Source: an uncultured Bryobacteraceae bacterium (GTDB lineage: Bacteria; Acidobacteriota; Terriglobia; Bryobacterales; Bryobacteraceae). From it: a stretch of DNA of 64,000 bases. The notes beneath the pieces were generated by a model that was not told the origin of the DNA, did no database searches, and saw nothing but the letters and a program-made list of their open reading frames with translations. This document shows positions 1,575 through 40,124 of the stretch, one piece after another; the stretch's first letter is position 1, and each line of letters begins with the position of its first letter. The stretch spans positions 1-64,000 of the forward strand of contig CALKXJ010000022.1 in NCBI GenBank assembly GCA_938003835.1. The letters run 5' to 3'. A program made the position numbers and the translations under genes.

Positions 1575-2522
1575 TTGAATCATCTGCAAGTAGAGAACCC
1601 GACTGTTTTCGAAAACTTAGCCGTCTTTCCCCTCATCAGCGAGGATATCCACTCTGAACGCGACTATCTGATGCTGGAGGAAGCGATCGAGTCCGGACAG
1701 CTTGCCATCGAGGAGATCTCCGAAGGGGGCTCCGTGTCCCAGCTCAAAGTGACCAACTCGGGCGACCTCCCGGTCCTGATCCTGGACGGGGAGGAGCTCG
1801 TGGGCGCCAAGCAGAACCGCGTTCTGAATCTCACCGTTCTGGTACCCGCCCGATCGACGACCGTCATTGGGGTCTCCTGCGTCGAGGCGGGGCGCTGGCG
1901 CTTCCGCTCACGCCATTTCCGGCCTTCCGCCCGGGTTCAGTATCCCTCCGCCCGGGCGGCCAAGTCCGCTCAAGTCAGCCGCTCCCTGCGGATGCGCCGT
2001 TCGGCGATGTCCGACCAGGCCGCCATCTGGGACGACATCGCCGAAAAAGCCAAGCGTCTGGCCAGCTTCTCTTTAACCGGCGCCATGGCGGCCATCTACG
2101 AGACGCACTCCCACCGGCTGGAAACATACATGAAGGTCTTCTCTGTCGTCGAAGGCCAGGTAGGCTTGATCTTTGCAATCGGGGGCAAGATCCGCGGCCT
2201 GGAGTTGTTCGACCATCCGGATACGTTCCAGAGGAGCTGGCCCAAGCTCTTGCGCGGCTATGCTCTCGACGCCATCGATCCGCTGGAGCAGATCCGCGGT
2301 GAAGCTCCCTCACTCGAAGCGGCTCGCCAGTTCCTCTCCACCGTGGAAACGGCTGAGCGTTTCGAGAGGAAAGCTGTTGGCGTCGGCGCGGATGTTCGAT
2401 TCGACTCGTCCGAGGTTGTAGGTGGCGCCCTCAAGGCCTTCGGCCGGACGGTCCACCTCTACGCGTTTGCGCGGCCGGAGGAAGCAAACCAAGCGGGCGA
2501 GCTTGGCTTCCGCACTTTCTAA
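1575..2522 (+). CDS. ARPP-1 family (DUF6569-type) protein
   Basis: A 315-residue protein that I recognise as the ARPP-1 domain family (ARG and Rhodanese-Phosphatase-superfamily-associated protein). Its biochemical activity is not established to my knowledge. The family-typical core is visible at residues 60-110: a segment ending in LDGEELVGAKQNR, then LTVLVPARSTT and VSCVEAGRWRF. There is no signal peptide or membrane helix, so it is probably cytoplasmic. I accept the TTG at 1575 because homology begins within the first residues; the next in-frame ATG (residue 33) would cut into the domain. The site GAGGCG upstream is a weak ribosome binding site. It stands alone: rarA lies 311 bases upstream and a convergent receptor gene follows. 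Confidence 0.75.
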   Translation: MNHLQVENPTVFENLAVFPLISEDIHSERDYLMLEEAIESGQLAIEEISEGGSVSQLKVTNSGDLPVLILDGEELVGAKQNRVLNLTVLVPARSTTVIGVSCVEAGRWRFRSRHFRPSARVQYPSARAAKSAQVSRSLRMRRSAMSDQAAIWDDIAEKAKRLASFSLTGAMAAIYETHSHRLETYMKVFSVVEGQVGLIFAIGGKIRGLELFDHPDTFQRSWPKLLRGYALDAIDPLEQIRGEAPSLEAARQFLSTVETAERFERKAVGVGADVRFDSSEVVGGALKAFGRTVHLYAFARPEEANQAGELGFRTF

Positions 2523-38540: not shown

Positions 38541-38616
<76 letters not shown>

Positions 38617-38759: not shown

Positions 38760-38816
38760 CCGCACCGGTTGCCGTGCCGCCGGTCCGCTTCTCGTGCCCG
38801 CTACGATGGTGTTGCC

Positions 38817-39059
38817 ATGAGGAAGACCGATCTGGCTCGGCGTCTGGCCCGGGCCGGCCGCATCACCAAGGCCGAGGCGGCCGACCAGCTCGACAGCGTC
38901 GTCCACAACATCGTGCGCAACCTCCGCCGGGGCCGGCCCGCCCACTTACCCGGCCTGGGCACCTTCCAGCCCGGTAATGCGCCGGGCTTCCAGCCCGAAG
39001 TCGACACCGGCCCCGCCAAGTCAGGACGCGGCGACTCCGCGCGGCAAGAGAGGTCCTAG
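38817..39059 (+). CDS. HU-like small protein without the DNA-binding arm
   Basis: An 80-residue protein. Residues 1-52 match the N-terminal part of the HU/IHF fold: KTDLARRLARAG, KAEAADQLDSVVHNIV, and the diagnostic PGLGTFQPG turn. The following part should be the DNA-binding beta-arm and C-terminal helix of HU. Here it is a short Gly/Pro-rich tail with no R-x-G-R-N-P motif, so ordinary DNA wrapping is doubtful and a dimerisation role is more likely. It ends one base before the ATG of the TIR gene, so the two are co-transcribed and probably co-translated. I cannot name a family beyond HU-like. Confidence 0.7.
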   Translation: MRKTDLARRLARAGRITKAEAADQLDSVVHNIVRNLRRGRPAHLPGLGTFQPGNAPGFQPEVDTGPAKSGRGDSARQERS

Positions 39060-39060
39060 T

Positions 39061-39630
39061 ATGACCGAGGCCGGGCAGCTCCAGCTCGTGGCCCAGGTCG
39101 TCCGGAAGTGCCTCGAGGAAGGTTTCACCATCGAGATCGAAGGCCTGGGAACGTTTCGGCCCGACGGCCGCGGCGGCATCGAGTTTCTCGCTGAACTGCG
39201 CCCGAAGGCCTTCATCGCCTACGTCGAAGAGGACCTGGCGGCGGCCGAAAAGCTGTACGCGGCGCTCGAAGCCTGCGGCTTTGACCCCTGGCTCGACCGC
39301 AGGAAGCTGCTGCCCGGCCAGAACTGGCCCCGGTCGATCGAGCGCGTCATCGAGATATCGGACTTTTTTCTGGCCTGCTTCTCGCGCCGGGCGGTCTGCA
39401 AGCGCGGCCATTTTCAGGCGGAGCTGCGCTACGCGCTCGATTGCGCCGCGCGCATGCCCCTGGGCGAGATCTACTTCATCCCCGTGCGCCTGGACGATTG
39501 TCGCTTGCCGGCGCCGATCGCCCGCCAGTACCACTACGTGGATCTGTTTCCGGATTGGGACCGCGGCCTGGAGCGCGTGGTCGCGGTCATGAGGAAGGCT
39601 GCCCGGCAGGCGCGACGCCCCGCCGCTTAA
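39061..39630 (+). CDS. TIR-domain protein with N-terminal HU-like segment
   Basis: A 189-residue protein. Residues about 7-35 (LQLVAQVVRKCLEEG then IEIEGLGTFRPDG) repeat the helix-hairpin of the HU-like protein encoded just upstream. Residues about 48-175 form a TIR domain of the bacterial TIR_2 type: KAFIAYVEED, GFDPWLDRRKLLPGQNW, ISDFFLACFSRRAVCKRG. Glu121 in GHFQAELRYAL is placed where NAD-cleaving TIR domains have their catalytic Glu. Such domains often degrade NAD or make cyclic ADP-ribose signals in anti-phage defence. AGAGAGG precedes ATG 39061. The 3' end overlaps the convergent TPR gene by four bases. Confidence 0.8.
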   Translation: MTEAGQLQLVAQVVRKCLEEGFTIEIEGLGTFRPDGRGGIEFLAELRPKAFIAYVEEDLAAAEKLYAALEACGFDPWLDRRKLLPGQNWPRSIERVIEISDFFLACFSRRAVCKRGHFQAELRYALDCAARMPLGEIYFIPVRLDDCRLPAPIARQYHYVDLFPDWDRGLERVVAVMRKAARQARRPAA

Positions 39631-40085
39631 GTGGGCCTTCGCCCCAAGCGTTCCAGCTTCCGCCGCGCGGTCTTGGCCCGCTCGCCCTCGGGCTCGAGTT
39701 CCAGATACTTTTGAAAGGCCTCGACCGCAGCATCAAGCAAGGCATCCCGCTCGGTGGCGCGCGTCTCCGCATGAGCCAGCCGCTCGCGCGCCTCCCCCAG
39801 GCGAAACCACGCCTCGGCAAACCCGGGGTTCCACTTGAGAGCCTCTTCGAAGCGGCCTGCGGCGGCCCTGTAGCTCCCCTTTTTCCAGTAGAACAGCCCG
39901 ACGCGAAATTCCTTGTCTGCCTGGAGGGGATTGAAGGCGTACTCGGTTTCGCGGGCTGAGCCCTTGTCTTCTTCGGGAGGCTCCTGATAGGCGGGCTTCT
40001 CCTGCGCGGCCGCCAGAACCGCCAGCGCCGCGAGCCATCCGCCCATGACCAGCCGCCGCAGGATCGGCAACTCGTTCGGCGCCAC
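39627..40085 (-). CDS. Secreted TPR-repeat protein
   Basis: A 152-residue protein (from GTG 40085): signal-like N-terminus with RR before GGWLAALAVLAAAQ, a Glu-rich linker, and at least one to two TPR units (KEFRVGLFYWKKGSYRAAAGRFEEAL and NPGFAEAWFRLGEARERL, each cited in part). It probably mediates protein binding in the periplasm, partner unknown. GTG 40085 is 6 bases after TATACT, a leaderless arrangement; ATG 40046 is the alternative with the signal starting MGGWL. Not obviously linked to the TIR pair, which is convergent. Confidence 0.6.
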   Translation of the reverse strand: MAPNELPILRRLVMGGWLAALAVLAAAQEKPAYQEPPEEDKGSARETEYAFNPLQADKEFRVGLFYWKKGSYRAAAGRFEEALKWNPGFAEAWFRLGEARERLAHAETRATERDALLDAAVEAFQKYLELEPEGERAKTARRKLERLGRRPT

Positions 40086-40091
40086 GATTTT

Positions 40092-40097
40092 AGTATA
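40092..40097 (-). promoter_or_regulatory. -10 box TATACT for the TPR gene
   Basis: TATACT on the minus strand ends 6 bases before GTG 40085; TSS would coincide with the start codon. Confidence 0.4.
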
Positions 40098-40124
40098 TCG
40101 CCGCGGCCTGGGGCCCCCGTGCAC

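Follow-up and report, generated by a model that had tools for sequence, protein, structure and literature searches.

The window, by which we mean the whole stretch of 64,000 nucleotides analysed here, holds two genes on its forward strand whose products appear to share a part of the HU fold (Table 1). The initial annotation, made from the letters alone, described a protein of 80 residues that resembles HU but lacks the DNA-binding arm and, one base apart from its gene, a gene for a TIR-domain protein. The open reading frames are exactly so: a single base lies between the stop codon of the HU-like gene and the start codon of the TIR gene.

Table 1. Coordinates of the HU-like/TIR gene pair and of neighbouring features in the window
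Feature	Position	Strand	Remarks
HU-like protein, 80 aa	38817..39059	+	ATG 38817, stop 39057-39059; PF00216 match
TIR protein, 189 aa	39061..39630	+	ATG 39061, stop 39628-39630; PF13676 match; AF2
Predicted half-HU segment, TIR protein residues 1-48	39061..39204	+	Profile-profile alignment, PF18175 in relatives, AF2
TIR domain, residues 49-173	39205..39579	+	Pfam, Foldseek, PDB profile alignment
Codon of Glu121	39421..39423	+	Aligned with catalytic Glu77 of TIR-APAZ
-10-like hexamer TACGAT	38802..38807	+	9 bases 5' of the HU-like start codon
Convergent TPR protein gene	39627..40124	-	Hydrophobic signal-like start; conserved position in part of the family

The HU-like protein matches the family model PF00216 with an E-value of 2.2e-7 over residues 1-52 only, and its score of 31.4 bits exceeds the curated cut-off of 22.4 for an HU core. 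Like HU/IHF proteins it comprises helices 1-2 and the core of three strands, and it has their MKK/MRK start; a basic tail follows. Unlike them it has neither the DNA-binding arm with its RNP motif nor the last helix, as judged from the end of the Pfam match at residue 52, the sequence and the AF2 model of a relative (locus L015), and it is encoded together with a TIR protein. Across loci these proteins are 55-88 residues long and basic, with a median net charge of +7; PF00216 is matched by 92 of 93 relatives and PF18175 (HU-CCDC81_bac_2) by 88 of 93. The genome itself also encodes a canonical HU (L176) with ARIGRNPKTGDRVEVP.

The TIR domain of the second protein is readily recognised by PF13676 (TIR_2; E 4.1e-26, residues 51-173, 92.3 bits against a curated cut-off of 28). 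The segment in front of it gives weak matches when a single sequence is searched, the best being to TIGR01201 (E 0.0046) and PF18175 (E 0.044), and relatives were gathered for this reason. Among 96 TIR relatives, 60 match PF18175 (best 1.3e-5), 39 match HU-HIG models and 25 match PF00216. When the profiles of the two families are compared, they align over 41 columns with a probability of 95.7 and an E-value of 1e-8, in a register that runs from helix 2 through the GLG hairpin to the third strand. PF18175 describes a short HU domain (70 positions) and finds matches in both families, but the two window proteins stay below its curated cut-off of 35 (19.9 bits for the HU-like and 14.1 bits for the TIR protein) and the partner domains differ. 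The AF2 model of the window TIR protein, built on 96 alignment rows (pLDDT 90.5, pTM 0.80), places a helix at residues 3-19 and strands at 24-26, 30-34 and 40-44 with high confidence ahead of the TIR sheet. By profile and model, then, the first ~45 residues of the TIR protein are predicted to form the second helix and the strands of an HU fold that lacks helix 1. An HU derivation of this segment is supported, in keeping with the initial annotation, which had recognised an HU-like segment there. In a few loci (L079, L085, L094, L104) the HU-like partner has lost its PGLG hairpin and the TIR partner keeps its half-HU, which weakens the idea of an interface that depends on the hairpin.

A Foldseek search with the TIR model returned TIR-APAZ chains of SPARTA as the nearest structures (best E 3.8e-7, 22-25% identity), followed by SARM1, TIR-STING and MyD88. 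In a profile search of the PDB, Glu121, already singled out by the initial annotation as a candidate catalytic residue, aligns with Glu77 of CrtTIR-APAZ; in a TIR-APAZ, E77A serves as the catalytic mutant (PMC10474274). The glutamate is retained in 95 of the 96 TIR relatives and F118 and R123 in all 96. On this alignment and fold similarity, the TIR protein is likely an NAD-cutting enzyme; that it has FxxE instead of WxxE counts against this. Other positions of the domain are conserved as well: Cys147, R143, P141, P150 and P164 are strictly invariant among the 96 relatives, and Cys106 and Cys128 are found in 91 and 90 of them, respectively. A redox, metal or structural role of these residues is possible.

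Are the two genes associated beyond this one genome? A total of 141 distinct loci was extracted, 140 of which extend for 250 bases or more on the 5' side of the TIR gene, and in all 140 an HU-like gene (E below 1e-3) stands directly 5' of the TIR gene; no TIR gene without an HU-like gene was found among them. Such pairing is far beyond chance. Most pairs overlap by 4-17 bases, the commonest overlaps being 4, 8, 11 and 14 and the commonest gap over the 141 loci -4. With the genes together throughout and an HU-like fold predicted for the N-terminal segment, the idea of a module advanced in the initial annotation stands. The HU-like profile was also searched against 19 genomes, and those that lack the TIR gene gave only matches of canonical-HU strength: the best E-values were 5e-7 within the window's family and 1.9e-9 in a different one, compared with 1e-28 to 2e-17 for true pairs. 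Two of these matches (L179, L180), inspected over their entire length, are canonical HUs with arms. It thus appears that genomes retain or lose the two genes jointly.

The remaining neighbours vary between loci. Of 136 loci with sufficient DNA, 58 have a TPR gene downstream of the pair, in 54 of the 58 on the opposite strand and within 500 bases. The TPR gene is followed by uvrC in 28 of the 93 loci long enough to show it (L032 and 27 others); in the window, uvrC is missing at this place. A fixed multi-gene operon that includes the TPR gene or uvrC can be rejected, as both are positional neighbours in part of the family and the TPR gene is on the opposite strand; the TPR protein is probably not a component of the module. 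Just upstream of the pair, a tRNA-Gly (GCC) gene occupies positions 38541-38616 of the minus strand. Among the compared loci it is found only in the window's genome; since the corresponding place elsewhere lacks a tRNA, an integration site was discarded as an explanation.

The start of the HU-like gene offers a hint on expression. In 101 of 140 loci a TAnnnT motif is located 5-12 bases 5' of the start codon, compared with 9 expected from shuffles, and 59 of 140 have an extended -10 element (TGnTAnnnT), compared with 0.5 expected. From these motifs, the two genes are likely expressed from one mRNA that is nearly leaderless. Other bacteria, too, have leaderless genes with motifs of this kind (PMC3160421), so that this mode of expression is not special in itself.

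Full-length relatives of the TIR protein (E <= 1e-40) were found in 96 of 121 sampled genomes of the Bryobacteraceae, a family of soil bacteria, as a rule once each and in nearly all cases including the N-terminal segment. About one in five of these genomes lacks the pair, which is hence not essential. Matching public contigs are titled Bryobacterales, Bryobacteraceae or Terriglobia. One record (L039, CALQCC020000017.1) is titled Bordetella parapertussis; this MAG carries the module, its name looks wrong, and a contig of equal length (86,837) exists in a genome of the window's family (G024). Beyond this family, the samples of the class and phylum yielded no full-length relative, with one exception; the contig scan used single-sequence patterns that may miss distant relatives in other phyla. 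Viral contigs and phages gave no relative, and plasmid matches cover the TIR domain only. The exception is a genome of family f8 (G239, locus L133), whose TIR protein shares 84% identity with the one in a genome of the window's family (L150 in G159, genus g25). This identity, together with a contig of 16 kb and a genome contamination of 4%, makes a contaminant likelier than a transfer, and we do not take the case as proof of the latter.

The trees point in the same direction. More than one member is available for 29 genera. These require 28 changes on the TIR tree, which is the minimum, and all 29 are intact; the HU-like tree needs 31 changes for the same genera. The place of the pair is conserved within subclades, and median dN/dS values of close pairs of about 0.12 for the TIR and 0.14 for the HU-like gene show purifying selection on both. 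Single copy, a tree that follows genera and the absence of full-length relatives from mobile collections argue for a vertically inherited clade module and not for a mobile defence island. The pair behaves like a resident module, vertically inherited and sometimes lost; no patchy, mobile or island-borne distribution was found, and a mobile defence cassette was rejected on distribution and tree.

Do the two proteins touch each other? In seven loci the HU-like stop and the TIR start lie in one frame, and the pair of L015 was modelled as one chain with the stop read as Gln, which is a modelling device and no claim of read-through. The alignment of the joined chain has 47 rows, only 7 of which, the naturally in-frame pairs, cover the HU part. 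AF2 gave this model a pLDDT of 90 (91-95 in the HU core) and a pTM of 0.85; its HU part has three strands but lacks the third helix. The pTM exceeds the 0.80 of the window TIR protein alone, in a comparison between different species and with covalently joined chains; since an unplaced HU part of 71 residues should lower the value, the model suggests a defined position of the HU part with respect to the TIR protein. This is as expected from the association through an HU-like interface that the initial annotation had envisaged. Among the Foldseek matches of the joined model only TIR domains appear. The strongest covarying column pairs between the two proteins favour the half-HU segment (0.40-0.44 against a background of 0.27), a weak tendency over 140 sequences. 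Taken from the model, a heteromeric contact between the two proteins is predicted.

We propose that the pair is a two-protein TIR module in which an HU-type heteromer would control a TIR NADase and which would act as a resident stress or suicide switch, a reading on which we are evenly divided. For its NADase activity, regulation, trigger and role we infer the following. The small HU-like protein and the half-HU of the TIR protein would pair as an HU-type heteromer, and this heteromer would fix the spacing of the TIR domains. Made first from the common, probably leaderless mRNA, the HU-like subunit would be an obligate regulator that may either hold the TIR domain apart or inactive until a trigger occurs or cluster TIR on nucleic acid. 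Once activated, the TIR domain would cleave NAD via Glu121. Restraint fits the small protein coming first, the effector second and the lack of solo TIR genes, while activation on nucleic acid fits the resemblance to SPARTA and the HU ancestry; the missing arm makes classical sensing of bent DNA unlikely. The whole might serve as a vertically inherited stress or cell-suicide switch, phage infection perhaps included, and would not be a mobile cassette for defence. A more far-reaching version, which we put forward tentatively and would not rely on, holds that one HU fold is split between the two proteins: the armless HU-like subunit would complete or cap the half-HU on the TIR NADase, HU-type pairing, perhaps on nucleic acid, would set TIR activity, and the resident immune or stress switch, kept across the family by vertical descent, would represent a new class of TIR module.

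A rival reading is a toxin-antitoxin pair, in which the HU-like antitoxin would neutralise a toxic TIR NADase by lending the missing part of the HU fold and might also regulate the operon. As in type II systems, a small, here basic, partner is encoded upstream of the effector by overlapping or abutting genes, no effector was seen without its partner, and a half-HU suggests structural complementarity. The strictly vertical inheritance in single copy and the lack of full-length plasmid or phage copies speak against this idea, which we consider unlikely.

The initial annotation had framed the pair in terms of anti-phage defence and named the sensing of unusual DNA by the HU-like part as one option. 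In a defence system of this kind, the HU-like protein would sense unusual DNA and switch on the TIR NADase. The TIR protein does point that way, since its fold is closest to SPARTA, its best PADLOC models are Argonaute-associated TIRs (E 1.9e-15) and the glutamate is conserved. However, PADLOC gave no match for the HU-like protein, which lacks the arm, and as a pair the two match no defence model; the module occurs once per genome in most of one family, under purifying selection, at places conserved in subclades and with a tree that follows genera, and mobile elements carry no full-length relative, be they phage, viral or plasmid. The anti-phage framing was not supported: given the inheritance pattern, a resident switch for stress or suicide in general ranks higher, and we regard anti-phage defence as rather improbable.

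Vertical, core-like inheritance would also suit a TIR domain without catalysis, i.e. a scaffold that binds proteins within a regulatory complex linked to the nucleoid, Glu121 being kept for structure, and so would the strictly invariant residues beyond the Glu region (C147, R143, P141, P150, P164). As the glutamate and its surroundings match active NADases, such a scaffold seems quite improbable. Very doubtful, finally, is a half-HU that is an inherited relic of a duplication, with the genes together only through co-transcription: the two HU-like parts are indeed only 27% identical and direct contact is a prediction, but adjacency holds in 140 of 140 loci while neighbours change, and the joined pair has a high pTM.

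How does the proposed TIR NADase under the control of an HU-type heteromer compare with what has been described? With SPARTA the pair shares the nearest TIR fold and the aligned catalytic Glu, and in both the TIR effector is encoded together with a partner that descends from nucleic-acid-binding proteins. In contrast, its protein ends after the TIR domain without APAZ, the operon contains no Argonaute, the partner is HU-like and inheritance is vertical; a Piwi domain was not found in the whole genome either, and membership in SPARTA is ruled out by the lack of both APAZ and Piwi. SARM1, TIR-STING and Cat1 are TIR NADases with an oligomerising domain of their own, and they resemble the TIR protein in fold, Glu and an attached segment that could set the oligomeric state, but here this segment is a predicted half-HU, seemingly paired with a separate protein. 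Thoeris differs in that no ThsA lies beside the TIR protein, no third gene is conserved on the same strand and ThsB models match weakly. Branches of HU in conflict systems were reportedly described by Burroughs et al. in 2017. As the initial annotation had presumed, no described system with this layout was found in a literature coverage that was mostly open access, and a prior description is possible.

What is known of TIR proteins in bacteria comes mainly from mobile defence systems to which they belong. The TIR protein described here, with a Glu at the catalytic position, is inherited vertically: about four fifths of the sampled family genomes have it, under purifying selection and always accompanied by the same small HU-like partner. 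This raises two questions: have HU folds been turned from DNA packing to the control of NADases, and what are resident, non-mobile TIR proteins used for?

Two further TIR_2 proteins came up alongside the module. The only other TIR_2 match in the window's genome (59.6 bits) is on contig C21 (L178:2394-3146 and 1733-2452, minus strand), where it adjoins a gene whose product starts with VFLNCPYDREFQERFDALVFAA and looks like a TIR-like or nucleotide-binding fold; the genes of L178 are possibly a separate pair. In another genome (L181 in G063), a TIR_2 domain of related sequence is fused to a Ser/Thr protein kinase.
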